Assembly: GCF_017569925.1 (NCBI RefSeq)
Contig: NZ_CP050854.1
Coordinates: 3,286,001-3,350,000 of the forward strand
Length of the DNA stretch: 64,000 bases
From: Brenneria izadpanahii
Lineage (GTDB): Bacteria > Pseudomonadota > Gammaproteobacteria > Enterobacterales > Enterobacteriaceae
Reading direction: 5' to 3'
Shown here: positions 21,861 through 40,802 of the stretch, in pieces
Position numbering within the stretch: the stretch's first letter is position 1
How the letters are laid out: every line of letters begins with the position of its first letter
Notes under the pieces: generated by a model
Told to the model about the DNA's origin: nothing
The model's database searches: none
What the model saw: the letters and a program-made list of their open reading frames with translations, nothing else
Position numbers and translations under genes: made by a program

Positions 21861-21862
21861 CA

Positions 21863-23032
21863 TCATTCCCTCGTCAGCAGGACCGCCACGCCCTGACCGC
21901 CGCCGACGCAAAAGGTGATGACGGCGTTGTTCAGATTACGGCGTTGCATGTCATAAACGGCTTTGGTCGCCAGAATGGCGCCGCTCCCGGCCAGCGGATG
22001 TCCCAGGGCGATCGCCCCGCCGTTCGGGTTAACCCGATGCGGATCCATGCCGATATCGCGGATACAGGCCAGCGACTGGGCGGCAAAGGCTTCGTTCAGC
22101 TCCCACAGGTCGATGTCATTGACCGTCAGGCCGGTCTGTTGCAGCAACTTGGCCGTCGCGGGCACCGGACCCAGCCCCATATAGTTGGGATCGACGCCGG
22201 CGGCGGCATAGCCGCGGAATACCGCCAGAATTTCCCGCCCCTGCGCTTGCGCCAGCGAACGCTCCATCACCACCAGCGCGCCCGCGCCGTCGCTCATCGG
22301 CGAGCTATTGCCGGCGGTGACGACGCCATCGTCGCAAAAGCAGGGACGCAGCGAGGACAACGCCTCCAGCGAGCAATCCGGACGCACGGATTCATCGCGC
22401 TGAATCACGATTTCCCGCCCTTTTCGATCCGGCAGCGAAACCGGCGTCACCTGTCCGTCAAATAGCCCCTTCTGCCAGGCGTCGGCGGCCAACCGATGGC
22501 TGCGCAGCGCAAATTCATCCAATTCGCGGCGGCTCAGTTCATAGCGGCGGGCGATGTTTTCGGCCGTGATGCCCATAGACGGATTGCCCAGCCGATCCGG
22601 CGAGGTATGAATATCCACCCAGCGCGGCGGCTGTACCGAATACGCCGTTTCCGTTTTTTCCATCGACCAGGTGCGCCTGGAATCGCTTTCCACGCCGCCG
22701 ACCACCACGGTTTCGGCGAACCCGGCCATAATCTGAATCGCGCCATAGGCCAGCGCGTTCAGCGACGCGGCGCATTGGCGGTCAAGCGTAATGCCCGGCA
22801 CCGTAATCGGCAGCCCCGCTTCCAGCGCCACCATGCGCCCCATATTGTTGATTTCGTTGTTCATTAAATTGGCAAAGATGACGTCATCAATGCTCTCTGG
22901 CGCGATCCCGGCGCGGCGCACCGCTTCCTTCACCGCCTGCGCGCCCAGCCTATGCGCCGGAACCGGCGCCAATACGCCGCGGCACCTGCCGATCGGCGTG
23001 CGAACCGCCGAGACAATCACTGCTTCTTTCAT
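21863..23032 (-). CDS. Thiolase family acyltransferase (acetyl-CoA acyltransferase / oxoadipyl-CoA thiolase-like)
   Basis: A second thiolase in the block (389 residues), distinct from the AtoB-type copy. The nucleophile is C87 in [25 protein letters not shown] and [11 protein letters not shown] carry the other catalytic residues. Motifs such as QCAAS and HPLAGSG lean towards the FadA/PcaF branch, which cleaves longer or branched 3-ketoacyl-CoAs. Having both types suggests that the pathway makes a 3-ketoacyl-CoA other than acetoacetyl-CoA as well. It starts 33 nt after the BKACE stop. Confidence 0.9.
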
Positions 23033-23065
23033 AATCTTTCCCCGATAAACCGCATAAAGGGATAA

Positions 23066-23905
23066 CTACAGAGGACGGATCCCCAGCATTTTTCTGGCGC
23101 TGGCCGGCGTGGCGACCTGTTTGCCGAACAGGCGAATGGCCCGCGCGGCGCGTTCCACCAACTGTGGATTGGTGGCTTTTACGCCTTTGCTGAAATAGAC
23201 GTTGTCTTCCAGGCCTACCCGCACATGTCCGCCCAGCGCCAGGGTGGCGAACAGAATCGGCAGATGGTGTTTGCCGACGCCAAAGGCCGACCAGGTGGCA
23301 TCGGTTGGAATATGCGAAACCAGATAGTTCAGGTTCTCTACCGTGGCGGGCATCCCCCCCGGCACGCCGAGACAGAATTGATAGTGAAGCGGCGAGCGCA
23401 GTTTGCCCTGCTCGACGAAATAGCCGGCGACGCCCAGCATGCCGCTGTCGAAGATTTCCACTTCCGGCTTGATCGCCCGCTCGGTGAGAATTTCCCCCAG
23501 TTTGCCCAGGAACTGCGGAGAGTTGACGAACACGCCGCCGGGCATCCAGTTAAATGACCCGGCATCCCAGGAGGCCATTTCAATCCCGTCCAGCCGGGAA
23601 ACGTGTTCCATCCGTTGCGCGTCGCTGGCGCGATGATCGCCGGAGGTGGTGCAGTTGATGATCACGTCGCAGTCATGGTAGCCGCGCAGCAGACGCAGGG
23701 TTTCAGCGAACTTATCGCAGTCCATGGTGCCCATGCCCCGATCGTCGCGCATATGAAGATGCACGATGGCGGCGCCCTGCTGCCAGCAGCGGTAAGCATC
23801 TGCGGCGATCTCTTCCGGCGTCAGCGGAATGTGTTCATTGATATCTTTTGGCGTTACCGCGCCGGTCAGCGCGGCGGAAATAATGACGTCGTTGCCTGTG
23901 TTCAT
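23066..23905 (-). CDS. Beta-keto acid cleavage enzyme (BKACE / Kce family)
   Basis: A 279-residue TIM-barrel protein of the former DUF849 family. The zinc ligands are visible as VHLHMRDDRG (H49, H51), with INCTTSGD, VEIFDSGML and FGVGKHHLPI further on. Characterised members condense a beta-keto acid with acetyl-CoA and cleave it to acetoacetate plus a new CoA ester, as in lysine fermentation (3-keto-5-aminohexanoate). From memory, the triacetate acetoacetate-lyase of anaerobic phloroglucinol degradation is also of this type. It lies directly upstream of a thiolase and CoA-transferase that would consume acetoacetate and the CoA ester. The beta-keto acid used here is unknown. Confidence 0.9.
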   Translation of the reverse strand: MNTGNDVIISAALTGAVTPKDINEHIPLTPEEIAADAYRCWQQGAAIVHLHMRDDRGMGTMDCDKFAETLRLLRGYHDCDVIINCTTSGDHRASDAQRMEHVSRLDGIEMASWDAGSFNWMPGGVFVNSPQFLGKLGEILTERAIKPEVEIFDSGMLGVAGYFVEQGKLRSPLHYQFCLGVPGGMPATVENLNYLVSHIPTDATWSAFGVGKHHLPILFATLALGGHVRVGLEDNVYFSKGVKATNPQLVERAARAIRLFGKQVATPASARKMLGIRPL

Positions 23906-24093
23906 GGATTTTCCCCGTTCACAGTTTTTATAATTGTTAAATCAATAGGTTGCCTATACCCATCTGCCACTCTGACGGCGGCGGGCGTTAAGCCGCGCGG
24001 CTATCGGATTGGGCGACCGCACGTGCGATCGCCGCTAACAAAATGGCTATGGCGCTGACGTATACAGCAAAGTCAGTCGAGGCCGTCAGGCGC

Positions 24094-25089
24094 TCACTTG
24101 ATTTCATCTTCCTCCTGCCCGCCGCCGATCCTTGGACGAATAACCTTGCCTTTCTTCTCGGCGGCCTTAACGAGCTCGGCCTCTTCATGGGCCAACATCC
24201 AGTAGTTGGCTTCGTGCGGGGAGTGCTCGGTGGCGGTCACGAACATTTCGGTGGCGAAGGCGTTGCGCAGTTCGTTGGCGATATCCTCCTTCCAGGCTTT
24301 ACGCAGTTGCTGCGTGGTGATGCGGCGGGTGACGCGGGTGCCGGTGCGCATAATCAGTTCGGCGATTTCCCAGGCGCGGTCATAGGCCGCTTCCGCATCG
24401 GGACAAATTTCGTTGACCATGCCGAGGGAGAGCGCCTTACGCGCGGTGATGATTTCGCCGGTCAGTTCAGCGTAGGCATAACGTTTGCGCCCCATCAGCT
24501 CGCGCCAGGCGATTTGAATACCGTCGCCGGGCACCATGTTGGTGCGGAAGTGCATCTCCGTGGTCCATGCGTCTTCGGTACACAGGGTGATATCGCTGAA
24601 CAGCACCAGGTCGGTATGGAAAGCCGCGCCGTTCCATACGCCGATGGTGGGAACCTCAACATCGAAGACCTGGCCTTCAATGTCGTTGGTGCCGTCATAG
24701 TACTGATATTCATACATTTTCCATGCTTCATCCGGCGCTGAAGCGAACTCGGTGGCCGGAAGCCAGTTGCCGTTTTCATCCAGCCGGCCGATGCCTTTCA
24801 TAAAATCCTTACCGGTGCCGCCAAGAATGATGATTTCGTTATCCGGATCTCTTCCGGCCCAGTCGAAGAAATAATGAAGAGCCTGGTGCGCAGGCGCGCC
24901 CCACTGTAGGCTATCGCCATTGGTATGCAGACGCGCTTCAAGAATTCCATTTTTCCGCTTCATGGTGAAACAGTGTTTTAGCTTTTCCGAATATTCTTCG
25001 AAAGGCATATGGGGAATAGTTCCCAATTCCTTATGTGACATTTCTTTGCGTTTATCGTGATCGGACTCGTAATTGGCTTTAATCACCAT
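24094..25089 (-). CDS. Crotonase-superfamily hydrolase resembling 6-oxocamphor hydrolase (beta-diketone C-C hydrolase)
   Basis: This 331-residue protein is longer than usual enoyl-CoA hydratases (about 260), with a 25-residue N-terminal extension and an insertion near residues 98-125. From residue 29 it follows 6-oxocamphor hydrolase: PFEEYSEK, then ILGGTGKDF, NGAAFHTD, MHFRTNMVPGDG and ALSLGMVNEI. The active-site residues recalled for that enzyme (H122, H145, D154, E244) line up with H158, H180, D189 and E281 at a nearly constant offset of 35-37. A retro-Claisen ring opening of a cyclic beta-diketone is therefore more likely than enoyl-CoA hydration, but a normal hydratase remains possible. 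ATG 25089 has GGGAG upstream. It is the first gene of the block, behind a CRP-like site. Confidence 0.75.
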   Translation of the reverse strand: MVIKANYESDHDKRKEMSHKELGTIPHMPFEEYSEKLKHCFTMKRKNGILEARLHTNGDSLQWGAPAHQALHYFFDWAGRDPDNEIIILGGTGKDFMKGIGRLDENGNWLPATEFASAPDEAWKMYEYQYYDGTNDIEGQVFDVEVPTIGVWNGAAFHTDLVLFSDITLCTEDAWTTEMHFRTNMVPGDGIQIAWRELMGRKRYAYAELTGEIITARKALSLGMVNEICPDAEAAYDRAWEIAELIMRTGTRVTRRITTQQLRKAWKEDIANELRNAFATEMFVTATEHSPHEANYWMLAHEEAELVKAAEKKGKVIRPRIGGGQEEDEIK

Positions 25090-25541: not shown

Positions 25542-26462
25542 TTATGAGCAATATTCAGGAGAGAGTGTTTTATTATTAAAAAAACATTTAAATTCATTTA
25601 GGAATAGCGGAATACAAGGGTTGGTATTTTTATTGTCCCACACCAATTCCAGATTAAACCAATAATCATTCTCCACTATTTCCAGCAAGACGCTATTCGG
25701 ACCGACTAAGTACCCCCGGTGTTTGGGCATCACTAAAGCGACCTGTTCCCTGAACTCCAGATTAAAACAGCAGGTTTTCAGATTGGGATATTCCTTATCC
25801 AGATTAAAGGCAATGCCGTAGCAATCAAAAAATCGGGTGCTGTATTCTTCGGATAACAGAAACTCGCGCGGATCGACGCGAATAATCGGCCATTTGCTGA
25901 CCTCTCTTAATGATACCTGGGATTTTCCGGCCAGCGGATGATTCTTGTTCACCACCACGCACAGCGAGTCGGTTTGAAACGGCAAAGCGTTAAATTTTTT
26001 ATTTTCCAAGAAGTTAGGGCGAACTAAAAAGCCCAGATCGCAGGTGTGATCTTCCAGAAAAAGCAACGCTTCATCCAACTCGCTATCACGGCATTCCACC
26101 ATGATATCGGGGTGATTTCGTTGGAACTGGGTTAATAGCTCAACCAGCACATGTTGAATGGCTTCGCCCAGATAGGTGATGGTTAACCGGCGGCGGCTTT
26201 TCCCGGTAAACGCGTTGACGATGGACATAGAACTTTCATACTGCTGAATGATTTTGCGCGCCTCTCCGCATAGCAATTTCCCGGTCGACGTCAGTTCCAC
26301 GCGGTGGGTATCACGCCGGAACAATTCAGCGCCGAATTGCTCTTCGAGCGATTTCATATGCCGGCTTAAAACCGGCTGGGTTATATTCATCTTCTGCGCA
26401 GCTCTGCTGAAGTTAAGCAAATCCGACAACAGAATAAATTCGTACAAAAGCTGCATTTTCAT
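25542..26462 (-). CDS. LysR family transcriptional regulator
   Basis: A 306-residue LysR protein with the N-terminal winged helix-turn-helix (FSRAAQKMNITQPVLSRHMKSLEEQFG, residues about 18-45) and a periplasmic-binding-like effector domain from about residue 90. It lies upstream of and codirectional with the crotonase/BKACE block and divergent from a pirin gene, so it probably controls one or both in response to a pathway intermediate. Confidence 0.88.
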   Translation of the reverse strand: MKMQLLYEFILLSDLLNFSRAAQKMNITQPVLSRHMKSLEEQFGAELFRRDTHRVELTSTGKLLCGEARKIIQQYESSMSIVNAFTGKSRRRLTITYLGEAIQHVLVELLTQFQRNHPDIMVECRDSELDEALLFLEDHTCDLGFLVRPNFLENKKFNALPFQTDSLCVVVNKNHPLAGKSQVSLREVSKWPIIRVDPREFLLSEEYSTRFFDCYGIAFNLDKEYPNLKTCCFNLEFREQVALVMPKHRGYLVGPNSVLLEIVENDYWFNLELVWDNKNTNPCIPLFLNEFKCFFNNKTLSPEYCS

Positions 26463-26708
26463 CGTTTATCTCTTCATGCCGATCTGGCGACGCCTATACC
26501 CGATCGACACTATAGCGGGATTGCGCCGCATGAAATGTGAAAGCAATCAAAGTGCATTTATCGCTGTCGCCTGATTATGTAGTTTTGACATAACAGAGGC
26601 GTTATCTTGAACAGAGCATGATATAGGCTGCTATTCTAATGTGACTGGTTTCACGAAACGAATATCCATGCGTTAACCGCCGAGCCATAAACCTTATGGG
26701 GATCCCAA

Positions 26709-27569
26709 ATGACCAGCAGAACGATTAAATTCCAGCACCCCGCGCATAGAGATGATATTGCCGATCTATCGACGGTGCGGCCGCTTCCCGGCCCCAAGGT
26801 TGAGCAAATCGATCCTTTCCTGTTTTTGAACCATCACGGTCCCCAGGTGTATCCGCCGCATAACGCCGGCCTGCCGTTTGGCCCGCATCCTCATCGCGGT
26901 TTCGAAACGGTTACCTTCATTCTCGACGGCGAACTGTCCCATCTTGATAGCGGCGGTCATGAAAATATCATCAGCGCCGGGGGCGTACAGTGGATGACCG
27001 CCGGTTCCGGCTTGGTGCACGCGGAGCTCTCCCCCGCGTCGTTTAAACAAAACGGCGGACCGCTGGAGATCCTGCAACTGTGGGTTAATCTGCCTGCCCG
27101 GCTGAAAATGACCAAACCGGCCTATAGCGGGCTACAGAAAGAGCAGATCCCCGCAATCTCGCTTGACGACGGACGGGTAAAGGTCGATTTGGTTTCAGGC
27201 CAATTCGCGGGAACAACGGGGCCGATCGCCTCGTTGACCGATGTCTCGCTGATGACGGTCGCCATGAAGCCCGGCGGCAAAATATCATTGCCCGCGCCGC
27301 AGGGACGCAACGTGTTTTTATATACGGTCCGGGGAAATCTTGCCATCGACGGCGTACCGCTCAATCCCCAGCATTTGATTGAACTGAACGATGATGGCGA
27401 TGAGGTCGGCATCACGGCGTTCACCGATGCCGTGATCCTGTATGGACACGCCGCCCCGTTAAATGAACCGGTGGTCTCGCACGGTCCTTTTGTGATGAAT
27501 ACGCGAGAGGAGATCTCCCAGGCCATTCGCGACTATCAGTCGGGCGCATTTGGCAAGGTTACACTCTGA
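26709..27569 (+). CDS. Pirin family bicupin protein
   Basis: A 286-residue bicupin of the pirin/YhhW group. The metal-site motif GPHPHRGFETVTFILDGEL and the later SGLVHAEL give three His and one Glu ligands in the N-terminal cupin. Some members have quercetin 2,3-dioxygenase activity in vitro; others act as redox-sensing regulators, so function is open. It is divergent from the LysR gene at 26462, the usual layout for a LysR target. Its 3' end is convergent with the AraC-type gene, 18 nt apart. Confidence 0.87.
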   Translation: MTSRTIKFQHPAHRDDIADLSTVRPLPGPKVEQIDPFLFLNHHGPQVYPPHNAGLPFGPHPHRGFETVTFILDGELSHLDSGGHENIISAGGVQWMTAGSGLVHAELSPASFKQNGGPLEILQLWVNLPARLKMTKPAYSGLQKEQIPAISLDDGRVKVDLVSGQFAGTTGPIASLTDVSLMTVAMKPGGKISLPAPQGRNVFLYTVRGNLAIDGVPLNPQHLIELNDDGDEVGITAFTDAVILYGHAAPLNEPVVSHGPFVMNTREEISQAIRDYQSGAFGKVTL

Positions 27570-27587
27570 GGCGCTGCGGATTTATCG

Positions 27588-28631
27588 TCAATGACCTAAA
27601 CGCATACGCAGCGTCGCCGACGGCTTCTCGCTGAACAACCGCTGATAATCGTTGGCGAACTGGCTTAAATGCCAGAAGCCCCACTGCATCGCCGCGTCCT
27701 TTACCGTCTCACAACGGGAAAACGGGCTGATCAGCTCGCGGCGCACCGCATTAAGCCGAATCATTTTCAGCCAGGCATTCGGTCCCGCGCCCAGCACCTC
27801 GCAGAAGGCATTCTGCAGCGTCCGGCGGCTAACGAACAGTTCCCGGCACAGATCGGGAACCGTTACCGGCTCCGACATCCGGCTCAGGGCGTATTCGCGC
27901 GCGCGCGTCACCAGCCGCCGGTAGCCGATGCGCCGGTCGGTTGTCTGGGAAGGCGCCGGATAGGCGCTTTCCAGCAAATCCACCACCGCCGTCAGCAGAT
28001 TATCGTTCAACACCTTGCTGGCGCCGGCGCTCCGCATCCCTTGCGGATCGTGACTGCCATACCACAACGCCTGATGGATGAAAGACCACAGCGCCGCTTT
28101 TCGGCCGCGTTCCACCATCAGAGCCGACGGCTCTTTCAGCAGCCGGAAGAACTGCTCCTGCTCCGCCAGCATTCCGGTATGCTTAAGCAGCACCTCATAC
28201 GAAATTACGACGCCCAGGATCGCATACTCGTTCGGCGTATTCAGCTCGAACTCTTTACCGCCGGGGCTCAGCGCGATACTTCGTTCGTCAATGGGCTGTG
28301 AACCGATGGATCCCATATCGCCGCGCGCGACGGGGCTCCCCAGCCAAAACGCCTCCGGCCACACCATGCAGGATTGTCGCAACGCCAGATTGGTGTATTC
28401 ATGGCAGAATTGAATGCCGTCGAACAGCAACTCCGTCAATTCGCCCCGGAAATGCCCAGGATGAACCTGATCGTAAAGCTGCTGCCACGCCGTAATGGCG
28501 CAGGATTGCGCGTAGACATCCTGCGTATGATGCTGATGTACGTTCTCATCCTCGGTCAACGATGCCAGTTTTATTTCCGAGGGATAATTCATGGCATCGA
28601 GAGAATGCAGATTGGGGCGTTTTTTAGTCAT
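27588..28631 (-). CDS. eutR: AraC family regulator EutR (ethanolamine operon activator)
   Basis: The 347-residue product follows E. coli/Salmonella EutR by recall: an N-terminal sensor region with DNVHQHHTQDVY-like sequence, ITAWQQLYDQVHPG and LALRQSC.VWP, then a C-terminal AraC helix-turn-helix with LFVSRRTLQNAF, GPNAWLKMIRLNAVRREL and DAAMQWGFWHLSQFA. EutR activates eut genes in response to ethanolamine plus adenosylcobalamin. ATG 28631 is chosen for its GAGGAG site; the open frame upstream is GC-rich spacer. It lies downstream of eutE on the same strand, matching its place at the end of eut operons, but no other eut gene is present. Confidence 0.88.
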   Translation of the reverse strand: MTKKRPNLHSLDAMNYPSEIKLASLTEDENVHQHHTQDVYAQSCAITAWQQLYDQVHPGHFRGELTELLFDGIQFCHEYTNLALRQSCMVWPEAFWLGSPVARGDMGSIGSQPIDERSIALSPGGKEFELNTPNEYAILGVVISYEVLLKHTGMLAEQEQFFRLLKEPSALMVERGRKAALWSFIHQALWYGSHDPQGMRSAGASKVLNDNLLTAVVDLLESAYPAPSQTTDRRIGYRRLVTRAREYALSRMSEPVTVPDLCRELFVSRRTLQNAFCEVLGAGPNAWLKMIRLNAVRRELISPFSRCETVKDAAMQWGFWHLSQFANDYQRLFSEKPSATLRMRLGH

Positions 28632-28943
28632 CGCACGCTCCTCGACAATTACCGTAACGATATCCACAACATTGCCGACCGCCGCTATCCGGCATGGATA
28701 ACGATACTCTATGTCATATTCGGGCGAATTAACGTGACGCCGACGATACCCTCGCACCATCGGCGCCGCCTGACCAACGCCCGATGCGCTTTGCCGCCGC
28801 GGCGGCCCGCCGGCCGTTTGGCCCGCCTCCCCCTTTCGGGGCGCGGCCCCAATCCGCGGCAGGAGGATTGGAGCCATTAACGGCCAGAGGCCCGGTGGCC
28901 GCGGCCTGCAATATGCCGGCCGCGGCGTTCCTCGTCTAACGCC
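28632..28943. other. GC-rich spacer between eutE and eutR
   Basis: About 310 nt without a convincing gene. The half nearest eutE is extremely GC-rich with short hairpins such as CCCCTTTCGGGG. Open frames here read as Ala/Gly/Arg-rich sequence and match no eut protein that I know. It may be scar sequence left where other eut genes were lost. Confidence 0.4.
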
Positions 28944-30302
28944 TCACACGATACGGAACATATCCACCATCACACAGCGGCGGCGGCGGACGAAGGTACT
29001 GGCCGAGGTTACGCCTTCCCCGGTCGGCGTTGATATGGTCATTGAAGTACAGCCTTCGCCGCCCAATCCCAGACCGGCGATGCAGGGGCCGTTCTTCACG
29101 AAGATGCTGGTATCAATGATGCTCGCCATACTATGCATATTGTTGACATTCGTAGAGTGAATCGCGGCGGTATGATGGCGGCCGCCTTCCAGCTTCACCG
29201 CCAAATCAATGGCTTCCTTCACGTTTTTGGCGCGCACGACCGGCAATACCGGCATCATCATCTCGGTGACGGCGAACGGATGCGCGGCGTCGGTTTCCGC
29301 CAGCAGCAGGCGCGTTTGTTCGCCGACATGCAGGCCGATGCCCTGCGCGATTTTCGCCGCATCGCGCCCCACCCATTCACGGCTGACCACGCCCTTGCCG
29401 TTTTCGTCGATATCCGTCAACAGCATCGGCAGCAACTGCCCTACTTCGCTGTCGCTCAACAATACCGCCTGATAGCGCTGCATTTCCGTCAACAACGCAT
29501 CCGCCACGCTCTCTACCACAATCAGCACTTTTTCATCGGCGCAGATGATGTTGTTATCAAAAGACGCGCCGCGCACGATAGAACGGGCGGCCCGCGCAAT
29601 ATCCGCCGTTTCATCCACCACGACCGGAGGATTGCCCGCGCCCGCGGCGATTAGACGCTTATCGGTGTGCTTACGCGCCGCTTCCACCACCGCTTCGCCG
29701 CCGGTCACCACCAACAGGCCGATTCCGGGATATTTAAACAACCGTTGCGCGGTTTCGATATCGGGATTCGCCACGCTGACCAGCAGATTTTCCGGGCCGC
29801 CGGCCGCCACGATAGCCCTGTTCAGCAGGTTGATCGCATGCAGGGAGACTTTTTTCGCCGACGGATGCGGCGCGAATACCACGCTGTTGCCGGCGGCGAT
29901 CATGCTGATGGCGTTATTAATCACCGTCGCGGCCGGGTTGGTGGAAGGCGTGACCGAGGCCACCACGCCCCAGGGCGCATTTTCAATCAGGGTCAACCCG
30001 TTGTCGCCGGTCAGCACTTCCGCGGCCAGGCACTCCAGCCCCGGCGTGCAGCGCGCCTGAGACACGTTCTTAGTATATTTATCGATGACCCGGCCCATTC
30101 CTGTTTCGGCGACGGCCATCTCGGCCAGCACCTGCGCATAACGCTCCCCGGTCTGGCGAATGGCATCAATCACCCGCTGACGCAAAGCCATGCTGTTCAG
30201 CATCTTCTGCGCCATCGTCGCAGCGTATACCGCATCGTCCAGCGAGTCGAACACGCCGGCCTGCGGTACATGCGCTGCTTTTTCGGTCATTAACTGTTCC
30301 AT
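28944..30302 (-). CDS. eutE: CoA-acylating aldehyde dehydrogenase EutE
   Basis: A 452-residue CoA-acylating aldehyde dehydrogenase that follows EutE closely by recall: GVFDSLDDAV, LTLIENAPWGVVASVTPSTNP, VTGGEAVVEAARKHT and the catalytic cysteine in FDNNIICADEKV. It oxidises acetaldehyde (or propionaldehyde) with NAD and CoA to the acyl-CoA. The N-terminus is about 17 residues shorter than E. coli EutE and lacks the amphipathic helix that targets EutE into the microcompartment. ATG 30302 is preferred because AGAGGA has an 8-nt spacing; GTG at 30308 would add only two residues. It lies between the phospho-lyase gene and eutR on the same strand, with no shell genes nearby. Confidence 0.9.
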   Translation of the reverse strand: MEQLMTEKAAHVPQAGVFDSLDDAVYAATMAQKMLNSMALRQRVIDAIRQTGERYAQVLAEMAVAETGMGRVIDKYTKNVSQARCTPGLECLAAEVLTGDNGLTLIENAPWGVVASVTPSTNPAATVINNAISMIAAGNSVVFAPHPSAKKVSLHAINLLNRAIVAAGGPENLLVSVANPDIETAQRLFKYPGIGLLVVTGGEAVVEAARKHTDKRLIAAGAGNPPVVVDETADIARAARSIVRGASFDNNIICADEKVLIVVESVADALLTEMQRYQAVLLSDSEVGQLLPMLLTDIDENGKGVVSREWVGRDAAKIAQGIGLHVGEQTRLLLAETDAAHPFAVTEMMMPVLPVVRAKNVKEAIDLAVKLEGGRHHTAAIHSTNVNNMHSMASIIDTSIFVKNGPCIAGLGLGGEGCTSMTISTPTGEGVTSASTFVRRRRCVMVDMFRIV

Positions 30303-30759
30303 ACTCACTTTCCTCTTAGTTATGCGGTTATGCCGTTTATTCCAACCGTGGACGGCGAAAAGTACGGATGTTGATTAACTCGCGTCCTCTTACGACATCG
30401 CCCAGACCGCACGCCGTTAAAACACGCCATTCCTGGCGGGAAACGGCTTGCCGTGCACCGTCCGGGCAGGCCATGAGAAACATCAACGTAATCGGCCTGC
30501 TGAATGAACGCCTGAAGAATCCGTTCCGTTTCATCACGTTTCCTCATTGCCTTGAAAGCGATTCTGGCAACGATTTGCAAAAGGAAATAGCAAATTTCGG
30601 CAAGGGGAATGAAAGATTGAAGTGGATCACTTAAATAACGGCGTTTAACCGCCGATGGTCTGATGGATGAGGGGCGTTAAGAAGGGCGATCGGCGCGATC
30701 GCCCGATAAAAACCATGCCGCGTCATCGCCCGATGCGCGCGGCGATGGCCGCTGCGGGC
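30303..30759. other. Intergenic region upstream of eutE
   Basis: About 450 nt between the phospho-lyase stop and the eutE start, same strand. Frames of 60-90 codons are present but show no family features. A separate eutE promoter is likely given the length, but I could not pick a clear -35/-10 pair or an EutR site. Confidence 0.4.
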
Positions 30760-32121
30760 CTACGCCGCGCTCAGCAACTGCGCCAGCACGGTTTCCATTT
30801 CGCCGAGCAGTTGCTCGGCATCACTTTGCGAAAAGACCAGCGGCGGACGAATTTTCAGTATGTTCGCCGAGAATCCCGTCGCCGAGATCAGCACCCGGCG
30901 CTCGCGCAGTCCGTTGACAATCGCCGCCGCCAATTGCGCGTCCGGGGTTTTCTGCTGCGGATCGCTGACCATCTCAACGCCGATGTACAGCCCGCTTCCC
31001 CGCACGTCGCCAATCTGCGGATAGCGCCGGGCCAGTTCGCGCACACCGTCGCGGATAAAACGCCCGACCCGGAGGGAGTTTTCCTGCAATCCTTCATCGC
31101 GGATCACGTCAAACGTTGCCTGTGCGGCGGCAATAGCCACCGAGTTGCCGCCGAACGTATTGAAGTAGCGCTGGTCGCGGCCGAAACGTTCGACGGCTTC
31201 GTGGGTGACGGCCACCGCCGCCACCGGATAACCATTGCCCATCGGTTTGCCCATGGTAATGATATCCGGATCGATGCCGTGACGCTGAAAGCCCCACAGC
31301 TTCTCGCCGGTGCGGGCGAAACCGGATTGCACCTCGTCGGCGATAAACAACCCGCCGGCCTTGCGCACCACCTCCGCCACCGGCGCCAGCAGGTCGGTAG
31401 GATCGGTATAGATGCCATCGGACGAAAAGGCCGAATCGGCGATAAACGCCGCCAGCCCTTCGCCATGTCGCTGTAATTCGTCGATCTGCGCGGCCACCTG
31501 CGCCGCCATCCGCTGCCCCATCTCCGCGCGGGAGAGACGGTAGGAATCCGGCGCCGGCACGCGGCGCACCCAGGCGCCAAGCGCCGAATGAACGCCCAGC
31601 GACGGCGAGATGCCGGCGGTAAGGAAAGAGTTGCCGTGATAGGCCTCAGAGGTGATGATCACCCCCTGCCGCCCGGTATAATGCCGGGCGATGCGCAAGG
31701 CCAGATCGTTGGCCTCAGATCCGGTGCAGGTGAACATCATATGGCCCTGCTCCGCTATCCGTCCGCCGAACGTCGGCAGCAACTGCTCGGCAAAATCCAG
31801 AATGCCGTCCTGAATATAGCGGGTATGGGAGCAAAGCCGCCGCATCTGGTTGCTAACGGCGTCGGCGACTTTCGGATTCGCATGTCCCACCGAAACGACG
31901 TTATTGTAGGCATCCAGATACTCATTGCCGTTGCGGTCGTACAGTCGCACGCCCTGGGCGCGGCTCACCTCCACCGGATGCTGGTAAAAAAGGCGATAGG
32001 CCGGGCCGAGCAGCCGGATACGCCGCTCGATGGCGGCGCGGTCGGCGGCATCCAGATGATCAAGATCGTCGGGATTAAAAGCGTTGACCATTTTACCGCG
32101 GCGGACATGGGAATCAGTCAT
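30760..32121 (-). CDS. Class III aminotransferase-fold phospho-lyase (AGXT2L / ethanolamine-phosphate phospho-lyase type)
   Basis: A 453-residue PLP enzyme. The PLP lysine is in DIITMGKPMGNGYPVAA, the cofactor aspartate in IADEVQSGF, and GSEANDLALR and YFNTFGGNS are in the expected places. These segments match the AGXT2L group, whose members eliminate phosphate and ammonia from O-phosphoethanolamine or 5-phosphohydroxylysine to give an aldehyde, rather than transaminate. Its gene overlaps that of an APH-type kinase by 8 nt, as expected for a kinase/phospho-lyase pair, and eutE lies downstream to oxidise the aldehyde. ATG 32121 follows an AGGAG site. The amino alcohol handled is not certain. 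Confidence 0.82.
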   Translation of the reverse strand: MTDSHVRRGKMVNAFNPDDLDHLDAADRAAIERRIRLLGPAYRLFYQHPVEVSRAQGVRLYDRNGNEYLDAYNNVVSVGHANPKVADAVSNQMRRLCSHTRYIQDGILDFAEQLLPTFGGRIAEQGHMMFTCTGSEANDLALRIARHYTGRQGVIITSEAYHGNSFLTAGISPSLGVHSALGAWVRRVPAPDSYRLSRAEMGQRMAAQVAAQIDELQRHGEGLAAFIADSAFSSDGIYTDPTDLLAPVAEVVRKAGGLFIADEVQSGFARTGEKLWGFQRHGIDPDIITMGKPMGNGYPVAAVAVTHEAVERFGRDQRYFNTFGGNSVAIAAAQATFDVIRDEGLQENSLRVGRFIRDGVRELARRYPQIGDVRGSGLYIGVEMVSDPQQKTPDAQLAAAIVNGLRERRVLISATGFSANILKIRPPLVFSQSDAEQLLGEMETVLAQLLSAA

Positions 32122-33214
32122 GGTGTTCTCCTGAATACGGGATCATCGACATAAAAGTTTGCGCAAGCGTGTCGCTGGGCCGGTCCAACAGCCAGGCCAA
32201 CTGCCCCCACCCCGGCTCCGTATTGCGCAGAATATACCGGGCGTTGTCGGGAAAACGCTGCGCCCGCCATAGCGTAATCAGCGCCCGTGCAATCACCCGC
32301 CCCATCACCAGATGGGGCAACAGCGCCAGTTCTTCGCGGCTAAGCGACGCCTGACGCAGATAGCCGCGCAGCAGATCGCGGCCGGCGGCGAACAGGTCGT
32401 CGGGCGGGTTGTCGGCGGCATCCCGCGGCAGCTGATTGAGCAATGCGGTGGATACGTCAACGGCTACCGCGGTATACACCGTATCGCCGAAATCAATGAT
32501 GCCGGTGACGAAATCGCGGCGGCCGGGATCAACGATAATATTCGACTGGCTGAAATCATTATGCAATACCTGGCAGCGCAACGCCCGGATACGATCCGAA
32601 AAACGCAGAAAGCGCGCCATGCCGCGTTCCAAAAGCCGCCTGCGCCCGCTATCCTCCACCGTCGCCAGCAGCGGTTGCAGGCTCGCCAGACGTTTCACGT
32701 CCCATAACAGCGCGCGGCGAGCCGCCGGATGTTCGAAGCCCGCCATCGCCAGCCGCAGCCGGGCCAGCGTCTTTCCCACCTGCTCCCGCTGCCGGGCCGA
32801 CGCGGCCACGCTATCCAGCGGCGTCCCGTCCAGATAGGTTAACAGCCGCGCGCATCGCCGCTGGCCCGCGCCGTCCGTTATCTCCGCCATAGCGCGGCCC
32901 TGCGCGTCGGGAATAACCGCGGGCACCGGCAAACGGCTGTCCGCCTGTTGCAGATAATTCAACAGATCCGTCTGTAGCGCGATCTCTTCCGCCGGTTCGG
33001 CGGGATTGGCGACCTTCAGAATATAGTGCCGTCCGGCCATATCCGTCAGCCGGAACGTATCATCCTTTTCGGTGGCCAGACGTCTGACCTGCCCCTCTAT
33101 GCCAAAGTGATGACGGGCAAGCCGCAACGCTTCGTCATCCCCCATGCTGATGAATTCGGCGGCTAAATCGTTGCCCGCCAGCGTGATAGCAATGTCATCG
33201 GAGTGTGTCGCCAT
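32114..33214 (-). CDS. APH-family small-molecule kinase (hydroxylysine/amino-alcohol kinase-like)
   Basis: A 366-residue aminoglycoside-phosphotransferase-fold kinase. The catalytic loop VLHNDFSQSNIIVD and metal-binding GIIDFGD are intact. The N-lobe with EKDDTFRL and YILKVANP resembles hydroxylysine kinase (HYKK/AGPHD1), whose partner in animals is an AGXT2L phospho-lyase. It should phosphorylate the hydroxyl of an amino alcohol such as ethanolamine, 1-aminopropan-2-ol or 5-hydroxylysine. It is the first gene of the pair and is divergent from a GntR gene, with two copies of a palindromic motif in between. No clear ribosome site precedes ATG 33214. Confidence 0.8.
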   Translation of the reverse strand: MATHSDDIAITLAGNDLAAEFISMGDDEALRLARHHFGIEGQVRRLATEKDDTFRLTDMAGRHYILKVANPAEPAEEIALQTDLLNYLQQADSRLPVPAVIPDAQGRAMAEITDGAGQRRCARLLTYLDGTPLDSVAASARQREQVGKTLARLRLAMAGFEHPAARRALLWDVKRLASLQPLLATVEDSGRRRLLERGMARFLRFSDRIRALRCQVLHNDFSQSNIIVDPGRRDFVTGIIDFGDTVYTAVAVDVSTALLNQLPRDAADNPPDDLFAAGRDLLRGYLRQASLSREELALLPHLVMGRVIARALITLWRAQRFPDNARYILRNTEPGWGQLAWLLDRPSDTLAQTFMSMIPYSGEHHD

Positions 33215-33248
33215 AGCCCGTTATTCCGTATTGAATCCTACATTGCCG

Positions 33249-33260
33249 ATTGTCGACAAT
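33249..33260. promoter_or_regulatory. Candidate GntR operator 1 (kinase / gntR divergent region)
   Basis: ATTGTCGACAAT is a perfect 12-bp palindrome, 35 nt upstream of the kinase start. The same core (TTGTCGACAA) recurs upstream of the binding-protein gene at 40793-40802, and a half-related copy lies 33 bp away, about three helical turns. Size and symmetry fit FadR/FCD-type GntR repressors. Confidence 0.65.
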
Positions 33261-33282
33261 AAGGCGTGATAAAGCAAGCGGA

Positions 33283-33294
33283 GAGTCGACAATC
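33283..33294. promoter_or_regulatory. Candidate GntR operator 2 (imperfect)
   Basis: GAGTCGACAATC keeps the GTCGACAAT half of operator 1 but loses symmetry on the left side. Its centre is 33 bp from that of operator 1, so dimers could bind on the same DNA face. It lies 53 nt upstream of the gntR start. Confidence 0.5.
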
Positions 33295-33346
33295 GCCAAT
33301 TCCCACCTATATAATTTGGTTATCACTGATTCCCGATGCGCCGATA

Positions 33347-34039
33347 ATGAAAAACTCCCAGTTAAAACCGCTGACCAAAAGTTCGATAGAAAGCCAAACC
33401 ACCGACAGCCTGCGCAGCTACATTCTCTCCGGCGCGGTCAGGCCGGGCGATCGGCTCACCGAAACCGCGCTGGCCGAACAGCTTGGCGTGGGCCGGGCGA
33501 CCGTCAGGAGCGCCTTCCAGCGCTTATCGGGAGAAGGCATTCTGGTGCAAATTCCCTATACCGGTTGGGAAGTCACCTCGCTGTCCATCCAAGACGTCTG
33601 GGAGCTGTGGACGCTGCGCGGCAGTCTGGAAGGGCTGGCGGCCAGGCTGGCGGCGGAACAGGACTCCCCGGCGCGGCGCAAAACCATTGAGCTGGCCTAC
33701 CAGCGGCTACGGGACGATTGCGCGGCGGGCGATATGGACGACATCAGCGAAAGCGACATGAATCTGCACCGAGCCATCGTCGACGCCGCGGGGCACACCC
33801 GGCTGGCGCATCAGTACAAACTGGTGGAGCAGCAGGTTCGTCTCTACATCGCAACCAGCAATGCCTACGCCTCCGACGGCCCTTCCGATATCCTTTCCCA
33901 GCACGCGCCGATGGTGGAAGCGCTGCTGGCGGGCGACGGACAGCGCGCCTCGCAGGAAGCCTGGCTGCACAACGAAACCGAAGGAAAGCGGCTGTCCGAG
34001 TGGCTGCGCCGGCAAAGTTCCCCGGACGCCGCCGGCTGA
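33347..34039 (+). CDS. GntR family transcriptional regulator (FCD domain)
   Basis: A 230-residue regulator with an N-terminal GntR winged helix (residues about 12-75: LRSYILSGAVRPGDRLTETALAEQLGVGRATVRSAFQRL). The helical FCD effector domain has LRGSLEGLAARLA, an N-terminal acidic/His pair in SDMNLHRAIV and later histidines (SQHAPMVEAL), which often bind a metal and a carboxylate ligand. ATG 33347 gives the normal length; an upstream frame from 33266 runs through the operators. It is divergent from the kinase/phospho-lyase genes and convergent with the amidase. The shared palindromes suggest that it controls both sides. Confidence 0.9.
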   Translation: MKNSQLKPLTKSSIESQTTDSLRSYILSGAVRPGDRLTETALAEQLGVGRATVRSAFQRLSGEGILVQIPYTGWEVTSLSIQDVWELWTLRGSLEGLAARLAAEQDSPARRKTIELAYQRLRDDCAAGDMDDISESDMNLHRAIVDAAGHTRLAHQYKLVEQQVRLYIATSNAYASDGPSDILSQHAPMVEALLAGDGQRASQEAWLHNETEGKRLSEWLRRQSSPDAAG

Positions 34040-34054
34040 CGCGCCCTATATGGC

Positions 34055-35473
34055 TTAATCGTCAGACGCGACGCCGGCTATCGGCAAACGGGGAGTGCGC
34101 GCTTCGATATCGGCCCCCGCCGCCAGACACAGATCCTCGCGAAAGCGCCCCGCCACTATCTGTATGCCCAATGGGGTTTGGTCGGGCAGATAACCGGTGC
34201 ACAGGCTCAGCGCGGGCAGACCGGTGACCGGCAGGCCGATCATCGGCAACTGCGAACGCCAGACGTATTGATAGGCTTCCTCCCCCTGCAAATCCAGATC
34301 GTTGGCGAAAGGCAGCGATGCGCTGACCGGCAGCAGCACAACCGGATACTCTTGTAGGAAGGCGGCCCATTCACGGGCAATCCCCAGCCGCCGCGACAGC
34401 GCGCGGGAGAAATCCGTAATGCCGATCTGCTCGGCGATCGCCTTTTGTCCGGCCAATGCGGTGATAGCGCCGGGATCGCCCTCCTGCTCCGCCGCCGCGA
34501 CCATGCCGTCATAGCCGTCGCCCATCCACAGCGTAATCTGGATCGCGACCGCCTCTTCCAGCGAGACCAGTTCATCCACTTCATCGACGATCCAGCCCGC
34601 GTCGCGCAGCTTGTCAGCCGATTCCAGCAGAGCCTGACAAATTTCCGGCGCGGTGTCGATGCCGTCGGGGCGCAGACAAACCGCGGCGCGGCGCGGCATA
34701 TCCGGGCCGTTGAGCGGCGCCGGCACCCACCAGGGATCGTCGGCGCTGCCCACCGACATCGCCTTTAGCGCCAGCGATAAATCCGCCACGCTGCGCGCTA
34801 TCGGCCCGGACACCGCCATAATCTGCCCGCCGATGGTGCGCTCGGCGCCGGAGGCGTTATAAGCGGCGATACGGCCGAACGACGGGCGCAGGCCGTGAAC
34901 CCCGCAGGCATAGGCCGGATAGCGAATTGAACCGGCGATATCCGTACCGTGGCCGATGGCGGCTATCCCCGCCGCCACCGAAGCGGCCGCGCCGCCGGAC
35001 GATCCGCCCGGCGTTAGGGCGGCATTGCGCGGATTCAACGTGGCGCCGTGCAACTGGTTGTTGGTAAACCAGCGATAGCTGAACGCCGGCGTGTTGGTGC
35101 GCCCGACGGTCAGCGCCCCGGCCGCCAGCAGGCTGGAAACCACCGGATTATTGCGGGCGGCGATCAGATTTTTTTGCGCTTTCAGGCCGTTGGTATTGGC
35201 ATAGCCGGTTTGGTCCACGTTGACTTTAATCGTAACCGGCACCCCGGCCAGCGGCCCGGCATCCTCGCCGGCGGCCAGCTTTCTGTCCACTTCGCGCGCC
35301 TGCGCCAGCGTATCTTCCGGGCGATAATCCACCACCGCATTGATGGCGGGATTCGCATCCTCCAAACGTTGCAGACAGGCTTGCGCGACGTCTCTGGCGC
35401 TAATGTCGCGCAGTTGAATCAAGCTGGCGATTTCGTTCGCCGACAGTTGCCACAGTTCGGGTATATCTTTCAT
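34055..35473 (-). CDS. Amidase signature family hydrolase
   Basis: A 472-residue amidase-signature enzyme with the Ser-cisSer-Lys triad visible: the lysine in VPVTIKVN, the cis-serine in LTPGGSSGGAAAS and the nucleophile in GTDIAGSIRYPA. It has no signal peptide, so it acts on an imported amide. It is the last gene of the minus-strand unit with a dipeptide-type ABC importer, 40 nt downstream of the ATPase gene. Hydrolysis of an amide or N-acyl amino alcohol carried in by that transporter would fit the regulon, but the substrate is not evident from sequence. Confidence 0.9.
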   Translation of the reverse strand: MKDIPELWQLSANEIASLIQLRDISARDVAQACLQRLEDANPAINAVVDYRPEDTLAQAREVDRKLAAGEDAGPLAGVPVTIKVNVDQTGYANTNGLKAQKNLIAARNNPVVSSLLAAGALTVGRTNTPAFSYRWFTNNQLHGATLNPRNAALTPGGSSGGAAASVAAGIAAIGHGTDIAGSIRYPAYACGVHGLRPSFGRIAAYNASGAERTIGGQIMAVSGPIARSVADLSLALKAMSVGSADDPWWVPAPLNGPDMPRRAAVCLRPDGIDTAPEICQALLESADKLRDAGWIVDEVDELVSLEEAVAIQITLWMGDGYDGMVAAAEQEGDPGAITALAGQKAIAEQIGITDFSRALSRRLGIAREWAAFLQEYPVVLLPVSASLPFANDLDLQGEEAYQYVWRSQLPMIGLPVTGLPALSLCTGYLPDQTPLGIQIVAGRFREDLCLAAGADIEARTPRLPIAGVASDD

Positions 35474-35513
35474 ACAGGTTTCCTTGTTTCATCGCAGAAA
35501 AGCATCGGAGACA

Positions 35514-37190
35514 TCAGCAGACTGCGGCTGACGCGCCCGCCGGACAGAAATTCTGAAAATCCCAATCCCGTCCGGGAGCCGCGTCAATCAGCGCGCGCGT
35601 ATAGCTGTGGCTGGGCTGGCTCAGTACCCTGACGGCATCGCCGGCTTCGACGATCTCTCCCTTTTTCATCACCACGATGGAGTGGCAGATTTGCGCCGCC
35701 ACCCGCAGATCGTGAGTGATAAACAGGATGGCGACGCCGGTGCGCTGGCGAATCTCCTCCAGCAGAGCCAGCACCTGCGCCTGCACCGAGACATCCAGCG
35801 CCGAAACCGCTTCATCCGCCACCAGTACGTCCGGCTCCATCACCACCGCGCGGGCGATGCACAGCCGCTGGCGCTGGCCGCCGGAAAACTGATGGGGATA
35901 ACGTGACATGATATCCGCCGACATTCCCACCAGCGTTAAGGCGTTGGCGGCCGTCTCCAGCGCCTGCCGGCGGGATACGCCGAAATTGATCAACCCCTCG
36001 ATCAGCGAATCCCCCACCGTGCGGCGCGGATTAAGCGAGCGATAGGGATCCTGAAAGATAAACTGTATTTTGCGCCGCAGCGCGCGCATCTCCCCGGCGC
36101 GGGTTTTCACCAAATCGGCTTTGCCCAACATAATGCTGCCGCCGGTCGGTTCCTGTAACCGCACCAGACAGCGCGCCACCGAAGATTTGCCGGAACCGGA
36201 TTCGCCCACGACGCCGAGCACTTCGCCGCGGCGAATGCGGAAGCTGACGTTATTGGCCGCCACCACGCGCCGGGTGGTTCCCATGAATTTTTTCTCTTCG
36301 TAAACTTTATCCAGCCCCGCCACTTCGATGGCCACCGCCGTGTCCGGACGGGCGGTATGCCGGGGCAGCAGGCTGGGCACCGAGGAAACCAGCATACGGG
36401 TGTAGTCCTGCGCGGGCCGGACCAGAATGTCGTCGCGGCTGCCGCTTTCCACCAGCGCGCCGCGGTTCATCACCACGATACGATCGGCAATCTCCGACAC
36501 CACGCCAAAATCGTGGGTGATAAACACCACCGCCGTCTGCTGGCTGCGCTGCAACTCTTTAATCAGCGTCAGGATCTGCTTCTGCGTGGTGACATCCAGC
36601 GCGGTGGTCGGTTCATCGCAGATCAGCAGCCGCGGTTTAAGAATCAGCGCCATTGCGATAACGATACGCTGGCGCTGTCCGCCCGACAGTTGATGCGGGT
36701 AGCTGTGATAAATACGCTCAACGTCCGGCAGATGAACCGAGGTCAGCATCGCCATAATCCGGCCTTTACGCTCATGCCCCGACAGCCGGGTGTGAATACG
36801 CAGCACCTCATCGATCTGCTTGCCCACGCTCTGCACCGGGTTCAGCGCCGTCATCGGCTCCTGAAACACCATGCCGATCGTGGACGCCCGCAGTTGACGC
36901 AGGCGCGAAGGCGCGGCTTTCACCACATCCTCGCCGTTCACCAGAATAGCGCCGCCGGTGACGGTCAACGCGCCGGCGGGCAGCAGCCCCATAATAGCCA
37001 GCGACGTTACCGATTTTCCTGAACCGGACTCGCCGACGACGCAGACCGTCTCACCGGCGTAAACCTGATAGGACACGTTCTCCACCACCGCTCGTCCTTC
37101 GCCCGCTGCGCCGGTTTTCACGGTGACCGACTGTACGCTCAGCACCGGACTACGGTCTTGCTCCGCCTCAGAGGATTGAATTTGCGACAT
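35514..37190 (-). CDS. Dipeptide-type ABC transporter, fused double ATPase (DppD-DppF like)
   Basis: 558 residues with two ABC domains. Each has Walker A (GESGSGKS), Walker B (LLICDEPT; VLVADEAV), and LSGGQRQR or FSGGQRQR signatures with the Opp/Dpp C-terminal extensions (QDYTRML; HSYTRAL). It powers the permease pair encoded just upstream. ATG 37190 is chosen for its GGGAGA site. The unit SBP, DppB, DppC, DppDF, amidase runs on the minus strand with gaps of 20-61 nt, so it is one operon. Confidence 0.92.
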   Translation of the reverse strand: MSQIQSSEAEQDRSPVLSVQSVTVKTGAAGEGRAVVENVSYQVYAGETVCVVGESGSGKSVTSLAIMGLLPAGALTVTGGAILVNGEDVVKAAPSRLRQLRASTIGMVFQEPMTALNPVQSVGKQIDEVLRIHTRLSGHERKGRIMAMLTSVHLPDVERIYHSYPHQLSGGQRQRIVIAMALILKPRLLICDEPTTALDVTTQKQILTLIKELQRSQQTAVVFITHDFGVVSEIADRIVVMNRGALVESGSRDDILVRPAQDYTRMLVSSVPSLLPRHTARPDTAVAIEVAGLDKVYEEKKFMGTTRRVVAANNVSFRIRRGEVLGVVGESGSGKSSVARCLVRLQEPTGGSIMLGKADLVKTRAGEMRALRRKIQFIFQDPYRSLNPRRTVGDSLIEGLINFGVSRRQALETAANALTLVGMSADIMSRYPHQFSGGQRQRLCIARAVVMEPDVLVADEAVSALDVSVQAQVLALLEEIRQRTGVAILFITHDLRVAAQICHSIVVMKKGEIVEAGDAVRVLSQPSHSYTRALIDAAPGRDWDFQNFCPAGASAAVC

Positions 37191-37251
37191 GGGTTCTCCC
37201 GTCGTTGTAAACATGCGTCGTTATAAACTTGAGCCGTAACCGCCGTTTCCG

Positions 37252-38130
37252 TTACAGCCGTTTCGCCATACGGGGATCGAGCGCATCGCGCACCGCGTCC
37301 CCCAACACATTCACGCTCAGCACCGTCAATGAAACCAGGATCCCCGGATAGAGGATCATGCCCGGCAACATCATGAAATAGACCCGGCCATCGGCCATAA
37401 TATTGCCCCACGACGGGATCTCCGGCGGGATGCCGGCGCCGAGGAAGCTCAGAATCGCTTCGGTCAGAATGGCGGAAGCGAAGATATAGGTTCCCTGCAC
37501 GATCAGCGGCGCCACCGTGGACGGCATCATATGCCGCCACATAATGACCGGCGCCGGCGTGCCGAGAATCGTCGCCGCCTCCACGTAGGACTCGCTGCGC
37601 ACGCCCATAATGACGCTGCGCACCATCCGCACCACGCGCGGAATTTCGGGAATGGAGATCGCCACCAGCACCGTAAACAGACTGGCTCCCGACAGGGAAA
37701 CCAGCGCAATCGCCAATAAAATGCCGGGAATGGCCATCAGGCCGTCCATAATGCGCATCGCTATGGCGTCCACCAGCCGGAAATAACCGGCGACGACGCC
37801 AATCGCCAGCCCGATAACGACGCTGATGCACACCGCGCCCAATCCCACCACCAGCGACTGGCGGCCGCCGTACGCCACGCGGGCGAAAATATCGCGCCCC
37901 AGCGCGTCGGTCCCCAGCCAGTGCAGCGCCGAGGGCGGCTTGAGCCGCTGAGAGGGATCGATGTCAATCGGGCTGTAGCTGCTAATCCAGGGGGCCAGCA
38001 GCGCCAGCGCGACAACCAGCAGCAGTACGGTGCATCCCAGCATCACCGGCCAGGTCATCAGGCTGGCGCGAATCTGGGCGGACAACCCGCCCGGCGATGC
38101 GGACGAAACAATCGCGGTCTCTGAACTCAT
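37252..38130 (-). CDS. Dipeptide-type ABC transporter permease (DppC-like)
   Basis: A 292-residue inner-membrane permease with an N-terminal OppC-type segment, the extracytoplasmic HWLGTDALGRDIFARV motif of the DppC/OppC family, and the EAA loop EAATILGTPAPVIMWRHMMP that contacts the ATPase. ATG 38130 follows an AGGAG site. It is cotranscribed with the DppB-like gene 20 nt upstream. Confidence 0.92.
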   Translation of the reverse strand: MSSETAIVSSASPGGLSAQIRASLMTWPVMLGCTVLLLVVALALLAPWISSYSPIDIDPSQRLKPPSALHWLGTDALGRDIFARVAYGGRQSLVVGLGAVCISVVIGLAIGVVAGYFRLVDAIAMRIMDGLMAIPGILLAIALVSLSGASLFTVLVAISIPEIPRVVRMVRSVIMGVRSESYVEAATILGTPAPVIMWRHMMPSTVAPLIVQGTYIFASAILTEAILSFLGAGIPPEIPSWGNIMADGRVYFMMLPGMILYPGILVSLTVLSVNVLGDAVRDALDPRMAKRL

Positions 38131-38149
38131 CGTCAATCTCCTGTTCGGC

Positions 38150-39091: not shown

Positions 39092-39148
39092 AGTGAGTTA
39101 CCTGTCGTGTCGGAAACGAAATGCCCGGCCGGCGCCGGGCATACAGAC

Positions 39149-40741: not shown

Positions 40742-40792
40742 GTAAAGCTCCTGGATCAATTGATGGAAATGGCGTTATTCTCTGACAGTACG

Positions 40793-40802
40793 TTGTCGAC
40801 AA
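40793..40802. promoter_or_regulatory. Candidate GntR operator 3 (SBP / mlrC divergent region)
   Basis: TTGTCGACAA is a perfect 10-bp palindrome and shares GTCGACAATC with operator 2. It lies upstream of the transporter operon and in the same 236-nt region as the divergent M81 peptidase gene, so a single regulator could control both directions. Confidence 0.6.

Follow-up and report, generated by a model that had tools for sequence, protein, structure and literature searches.

We analysed a 64,000-nucleotide stretch of the genome of Brenneria izadpanahii, a plant-associated bacterium (the window; G000:C1:3286001-3350000 of this 5.33-Mb single-contig genome, G000), in which genes for a kinase and a predicted phospho-lyase lie next to eutE and eutR. 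All four are on the minus strand between window positions 27588 and 33214, where the APH-family kinase gene overlaps the AGXT2L-type lyase gene and is followed by eutE and then eutR, just as an earlier reading made from the letters alone (the sequence-only reading) had described them. That reading joined the four genes into a B12-free amino alcohol pathway under EutR. Our analysis suggests instead that the kinase and the phospho-lyase are probably the core of a self-contained, GntR-controlled catabolic module of ~12 kb, which lies beside a separately inherited eutE-eutR unit.

The kinase-lyase pair and its module

The kinase gene (32114–33214, minus strand) is the first of the kinase-lyase operon and encodes a protein with an APH domain (PF01636, E 2.1e-28); its best NCBIfam match, under the cut-off, is the N-terminal part of PRK06148. 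Together with the APH domain, the motifs HND...N and DFGD place it in the APH fold. In the stretches that carry them, HNDFSQSN and IDFGD, residues H218, N219, D220, N225, D241, G243 and D244 are invariant in all 14 aligned sequences, and we assume them to be catalytic. The open reading frames (ORFs) of kinase and lyase share 8 bases. The lyase gene (30760–32121, minus strand) encodes an AGXT2L-type enzyme that depends on pyridoxal phosphate (PLP) and has the class-III aminotransferase fold (PF00202, E 1e-77). Its two best PDB matches, 5g4i (364 bits) and 6tor (328 bits), are both phospho-lyases, and the third reaches 185 bits. The segment GKPMGNG, invariant in 16 of 16 sequences, aligns with both structures and presumably holds the PLP-binding lysine. 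With these assignments, the pair is likely to act on some vicinal amino alcohol by phosphorylation and subsequent elimination, a chemistry that the sequence-only reading had also proposed and that fits the gene families.

Public records name the lyase an aspartate aminotransferase family protein, as would suit a true transaminase beside a kinase that acts on something unrelated. We consider such an arrangement very improbable, as the two nearest PDB sequences are phospho-lyases that score almost double what the next one does, and as the kinase gene lies directly upstream of the lyase gene in 69 of 79 loci of distant relatives. These loci come from the best 80 of at least 590 confirmed distant lyase relatives; absence in this set applies to the fetched stretch, and several contigs are short. 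The best named relatives of the kinase and the lyase are from Brenneria, with B. goodwinii the nearest (83% for the kinase, 90% for the lyase). At E 1e-170 in the wider family, lyase orthologs were found in the B. izadpanahii genome alone among 295, a sample that evidently did not include G002 and G006.

Within the genus we compared nine Brenneria genomes, G000–G008, including that of B. izadpanahii. Three of them, G000, G002 and G006, share a block in which lyase and kinase are accompanied by a divergent regulator, an amidase, a double ATPase, two permeases, a binding protein and a peptidase. The regulator, divergent from the kinase, is of the GntR/FCD family (33266–34039, plus strand; PF00392, PF07729). 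It is followed on the minus strand by the amidase-signature hydrolase (34055–35473; PF01425; PRK07487 678 bits, cut-off 428), the fused double ATPase of a peptide-type ATP-binding cassette (ABC) transporter (35514–37214; PF00005 in two stretches, PF08352), the two permeases and a family 5 solute-binding protein (39149–40759; PF00496, E 6e-71). One permease carries PF00528 and PF19300 (38150–39091); the other (37252–38172) is a putative ABC permease by its position and length, and homologs of 90–91% occupy the equivalent position in G002 and G006. Across a second divergent promoter lies the gene of an MlrC-like M81 metallopeptidase (40978–42477, plus strand; PF07364, E 1e-100; PF07171), whose homologs in G002 and G006 (87–88%) also stand beside the binding protein; the MlrC model itself gives it 174 bits, below the cut-off of 999. 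A minus-strand ORF at 40942–42069 was rejected as a gene, as it has no family match, whereas the plus-strand MlrC-like ORF has one.

Distribution of the module and of eutE-eutR in Brenneria

An ortholog of the lyase (at least 86%) is present in G000, G002 and G006. Five of the six other genomes have only lyase relatives at 49–52%; at this threshold, G001 lacks any. EutR passes its cut-off in five of the nine genomes (G000, G002, G003, G004 and G005), with eutE adjacent every time. The pair adjoins eutE on the same strand in G000 and G002; eutE-eutR occurs without an orthologous pair in G003, G004 and G005, and the pair occurs without eutE or eutR over the cut-off in G006. The kinase-lyase pair and eutE are therefore not co-inherited: both are found in two genomes, one without the other in four and neither in three. 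G008 has an EutE-class dehydrogenase with a full N terminus (L129) that passes the EutE cut-off through the shared PRK15398 model; because its surroundings, read by eye, look like a pdu-type microcompartment operon, it was not counted as eutE-eutR.

The G004 genome has the locus without the module. Its order of LysR, eutR, eutE and EAL genes is that of the window apart from a pirin gene, minus one stretch. The 84-bp block upstream of eutE (window 30553–30636) is in place, and ~80 bp later the DNA matches the window again from 42845. The ~12.2 kb absent from G004, which were either never gained or lost, contain the lyase, the kinase, the GntR regulator, the amidase, the ABC transporter and the MlrC-like peptidase. 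Together with conservation of the block and the operator-like sites described below, this empty site makes the module and its regulator a well supported prediction. A cluster at window 20554–25089 encodes subunit B of a 3-oxoacid CoA-transferase and a protein below the cut-off of the 3-keto-5-aminohexanoate cleavage model; its genes also adjoin eutR-eutE in G004.

The eutE gene (28944–30302, minus strand; PRK15398 675 bits, cut-off 403) encodes an acylating aldehyde dehydrogenase and eutR (27588–28631, minus strand; PRK10130 527 bits, cut-off 319) an AraC-type regulator. By model alignment and sequence, their likely starts are the ATG codons at 30302 and 28631, respectively; the listed ORFs start further upstream in frame. 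With these starts, 457 bp separate the lyase from eutE and 312 bp separate eutE from eutR, so that the four genes do not make up one tight operon. Following the lyase stop is a hairpin with a 9-bp stem (30684–30704, minus strand), a possible terminator. The 51-nt stretch around it folds at -17.8 kcal/mol (z -2.5; 4 of 200 shuffles equal or better); a terminator scan, with 6 sites in total and 6.6 in shuffles, does not list it. The conserved block upstream of eutE (30553–30636, minus strand) is 88% identical to that of G004 and is likely to be the promoter region of eutE itself. Its core motif is found at eutE in all five genomes from which it was derived, and occurs at a single other place in the nine genomes, with 3 mismatches, in G006. 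The block is retained where the kinase-lyase pair is missing. At the Rfam gathering score, no riboswitch or other RNA match was found in window 26000–42000.

In an alignment with E. coli EutE, the window protein keeps the SFDNNIICADEK segment. By predicted starts, EutE has 452 residues in G000, G002 and G004 and 459 in G003 and G005, compared with 467 in E. coli, and a 14-residue N-terminal alignment gap sets it apart from the microcompartment type of E. coli EutE. According to excerpts of a review, this N-terminal segment is a predicted encapsulation peptide (PMC5821096); with its shorter N terminus, the window EutE therefore need not sit in a microcompartment. Window EutE and EutR pass the cut-offs of the families known from the long E. 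coli eut operon. Unlike in E. coli, where eutE lies among eutM, eutN, eutJ and eutG, eutE is here accompanied by eutR only, and eutBC is elsewhere.

The sequence-only reading described the EutBC route as absent. This holds for the window and fails for the genome, where a whole-genome search found one EutB match, of 738 bits, at G000:C1:1609516, with EutC adjoining. The genes belong to a short ethanolamine locus, in the order amino-acid-type permease, eutB and eutC (L002 7924-11669, which equals G000:C1:1607923-1611668), 1.7 Mb from the window. All nine Brenneria genomes have eutB, and all nine carry TGGTAC-N5-TTGCA upstream of the permease gene, which resembles the sigma-54 promoter consensus; this sigma-54-like site and the gene order identify a short eut locus, separate from the module, of the kind found in Klebsiella, Pseudomonas and Acinetobacter. 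The corrin-synthesis marker cbiC is also over its cut-off in all nine genomes, and a rationale based on B12 shortage is weakened to the extent that this single marker represents the corrin pathway. For the same kind of locus in Klebsiella, control by NtrC and RpoN has been published (PMC11101070, as far as its accessible part goes).

Being the only EutE and the only EutR over their cut-offs in a genome that has eutBC, the window proteins may serve the distant permease-eutBC locus, with the kinase-lyase module as an unrelated neighbour. The adjacency of eutE and eutR in all five genomes with EutR over its cut-off points the same way, and we give this explanation serious though somewhat less than even weight. 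It has to be set against the presence of eutB in four genomes without EutR over the cut-off, and against the control regions, as the permease has a sigma-54-like upstream site and the eutE motif occurs in G000 only at eutE. In addition, the accessible text of one study has a Salmonella strain with the A. baumannii enzyme growing on ethanolamine without EutE (PMC9426561). The sequence-only reading had itself named, among the observations that would refute it, an intact eutBC operon elsewhere that needs this eutE; as far as the presence of eutBC, here with a permease, goes, this is borne out.

The route which the sequence-only reading preferred, in which the kinase, the lyase and EutE degrade ethanolamine or 1-aminopropan-2-ol independently of cobalamin and under EutR, seems improbable to us. 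The genes are adjacent on one strand in G000 and G002, the shortened EutE could act outside a microcompartment, and the kinase is broken in G006, where eutE is missing, all of which would suit such a route. This is opposed by the permease-eutBC locus and its eutB in every Brenneria genome, by the three genomes that keep eutE-eutR without the pair, by the upstream block of eutE and the gap with its hairpin, and by the GntR regulator and operator-like sites that belong to the pair. Beyond adjacency in two genomes, we found no link of eutE-eutR to the module. The idea of a rewired eut pathway keeps some chance because EutE, acting in trans, could use an aldehyde of two or three carbons: it may take acetaldehyde or propionaldehyde from the lyase.

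Operator-like sites and distant lyase loci

The motif RTTGTCGACAAY occurs at two sites in the 5.33 Mb of G000, each at a divergent promoter of the module. One, with the sequence ATTGTCGACAAT (33249–33260), is in the 51-bp gap between the kinase and gntR genes, and the other, a second copy reading GTTGTCGACAAT (40792–40803), is between the genes of the binding protein and the MlrC-like peptidase. G002 and G006 also carry RTTGTCGACAAY at both promoters, which makes six of six; in the kinase-gntR gap, ATTGTCGACAAT is kept in G002 and GTTGTCGACAAT is found in G006. We infer that the GntR/FCD regulator binds RTTGTCGACAAY at both divergent promoters and propose the two sites as its operators. In P. 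aeruginosa, this 12-mer is where the GntR/FCD repressor PrpR is predicted to bind, and in the accessible part of the PrpR paper the purified protein gel-shifted the upstream DNA in which it lies (PMC9765439). This makes the 12-mer a credible target for a regulator of this domain family. PrpR shares the 12-nt palindrome ATTGTCGACAAT and differs in its target genes; according to the same excerpts it represses the methylcitrate (propionate) operon, and its palindrome is the one found at window 33249–33260 and 40792–40803.

As an independent test, near-sites with one mismatch allowed were counted in the 80 distant lyase loci. Five loci with a GntR homolog had 14 near-sites in 87 kb and four with a binding-protein homolog had 13 in 69 kb, with L024 in both sets; the remaining 72 loci had 5 in 1109 kb. 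The ORF clusters of these loci were built with codon-position GC. A kinase match was found in 70 of the 80 loci, a GntR match in 25, an ATPase in 13 and an amidase in 3. In the fetched stretches, neither eutE nor eutR was found in any of the 80, which also weighs against a route shared by the pair and EutE. An aldehyde dehydrogenase as the usual partner of the pair was considered and rejected: searches with eight seeds at E 1e-12 placed one in 14 of the 80 loci, and the EutE seed was never the best match.

The Bradyrhizobium locus L024 has a GntR regulator, a binding protein, two permeases, an ATPase, the kinase and the lyase in a single run. Pfam scans of selected neighbours, which give a pattern rather than a count, placed a gamma-glutamyltranspeptidase near the pair in L020 and L030, an M20 peptidase in L017 and L029 and an amidase in L034; MlrC-like homologs adjoin the transporter in L017 and L019. 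This variety of amide-cutting families around one kinase-lyase core suggests a conjugated substrate. In the scheme that we propose, the peptide-type ABC transporter would import an amide- or peptide-linked amino alcohol, and the amidase and the MlrC-like peptidase would cut the amide to free the amino alcohol. The kinase would then phosphorylate its hydroxyl, and the PLP enzyme would release phosphate and ammonia, leaving an aldehyde, with the divergent GntR/FCD regulator controlling both promoters through RTTGTCGACAAY. What the sequence itself shows is the gene content, the conservation of the module, its absence from one relative and the operator-like sites that its promoters share; the order of reactions and the class of substrate are our inference.

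The pair may act on 5-hydroxylysine, or on a different amino acid that ends in a vicinal amino alcohol, in place of a simple amino alcohol. Several kinase relatives carry the source name hydroxylysine kinase, the peptidases and the amidase would fit release from peptides, and a phospho-lyase for phosphohydroxylysine was reportedly described by Veiga-da-Cunha in 2012. We regard this substrate as rather unlikely, though less so than the route through EutE.

Several observations weigh against a self-contained module under its own regulator. The totals of RTTGTCGACAAY are ordinary, with 6 sites in the six genomes that do not have the module, 3 in G002 and 5 in G006, and the reversed motif, used as a control, was found once in G000, four times in G002, twice in G004, once each in G005 and G006 and in none of the other four genomes. 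Upstream of the pair itself, a near-site was present in 5 of 79 relatives, compared with 12 of 1580 random windows. Few of the best 80 loci hold a homolog of the GntR regulator (5), of the binding protein (4) or an amidase match (3). Another GntR protein uses the 12-mer as well, so that some of the distant sites may be targets of other regulators, and the motif is not unique to this regulon. Within Brenneria, adjacency to eutE is kept in two of the three genomes that bear the module. In the third, G006, which is without eutE, the kinase gene (L113 5363-7779) is interrupted by an ORF that encodes a DDE transposase domain, so that the Brenneria genomes compared show no intact module free of eutE. 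Since the number of sites is ordinary (a background of ~1 per genome) and their location is not, the argument for an operator rests on location.

Comparison with known amino alcohol pathways

The B. izadpanahii genome contains two further class-III enzymes of AGXT2L-like kind. At L118 (5450-7797), one of them comes directly after another APH kinase and forms a second pair with it, again with overlapping ORFs; the neighbours of this pair include a DeoR-type regulator and a binding protein of family 3. The L118 lyase is as close to 5g4i (369 bits) and 6tor (353 bits) as the window lyase is, and the L118 kinase is 22% identical to the window kinase. The two kinases differ in their distance to PDB entry 6ef6, which the L118 kinase matches with 288 bits. 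A profile of the window-kinase family (14 kinases) reaches 35 bits, which is not a close match, and 6ef6 is not among the PDB matches of the single window kinase sequence at E 1e-3. This entry is deposited as an aminoglycoside phosphotransferase, and we take it to be the aminopropanol kinase of the M. smegmatis microcompartment. If that identity holds, 1-aminopropan-2-ol is a likelier substrate for the L118 pair than for the window pair. A third AGXT2L-like gene, at L117 (5958-7292), is ~50% identical and has no window-kinase match in its fetched stretch.

The closest known case is the Aut/RMM cluster, which serves 1-amino-2-propanol in Rhodococcus and Mycobacterium. As described in the accessible part of its report, it has an APH-type phosphotransferase, an aminotransferase, an EutE-like acylating dehydrogenase, a GntR regulator and shell proteins, and transamination to lactaldehyde is proposed (PMC6620236). 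Reading this cluster as a kinase followed by a lyase is our own interpretation. It resembles the window in grouping a phosphotransferase, an aminotransferase-like enzyme, an EutE-like dehydrogenase and a GntR regulator. It differs, in the same excerpts, by its shell proteins, a GabP-type permease, an aminopropanol dehydrogenase and the proposed transamination, whereas eutE in the window forms a unit of its own and the kinase there is only distantly similar to 6ef6. In light of this cluster, the combination of kinase, lyase and EutE makes chemical sense, and the idea has a precedent. As the precedent speaks for a joint route of the pair with EutE and the 6ef6 comparisons speak against it, we leave our low estimate of that route unchanged.

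The window lyase resembles the AGXT2L/ETNPPL phospho-lyases (5g4i, human 6tor and the PRK06148 fusion family) in fold, in sequence and in its pairing with an APH-type kinase. The window differs in that two separate genes are present, within a module that includes a transporter, an amidase, an MlrC-like peptidase and a GntR regulator. Gamma-glutamylation by GlnA4 of Streptomyces is another route for ethanolamine, with a different first enzyme, and the accessible text on it mentions no kinase-lyase pair (PMC6529630). The terms phospho-lyase and phosphoethanolamine do not occur in one review (PMC9397018), nor do phosphoethanolamine and phospholyase in another (PMC5821096). Titles and abstract openings of the literature searched, which left aside most subscription journals, contained no description of the module, and the Erwinia and Pseudomonas biochemistry of amino alcohols to which the sequence-only reading had referred was not found in that same literature.

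The locus illustrates that reading a pathway from neighbouring genes alone can mislead, as one relative has eutE and the gene that follows with nothing of the module between them. Kinase-phospho-lyase pairs are common among the best lyase loci, and public records name the window lyase an aspartate aminotransferase. Linking the pair with a transporter and with amide hydrolases in one regulon would narrow the search for its substrate to conjugated amino alcohols, and it offers an operator that can be tested. We see an evenly balanced case for a transferable module, parts of which are found in Brenneria and also in Bradyrhizobium, Variovorax, Caballeronia and marine relatives of Rhodobacter. In it, a GntR regulator and ATTGTCGACAAT would switch on the genes by which an amide-linked amino alcohol is taken up, freed from its amide, phosphorylated and broken down by phospho-elimination. 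The kinase-lyase chemistry would then be the last stage in scavenging conjugated amino alcohols and not a version of the eut pathway.

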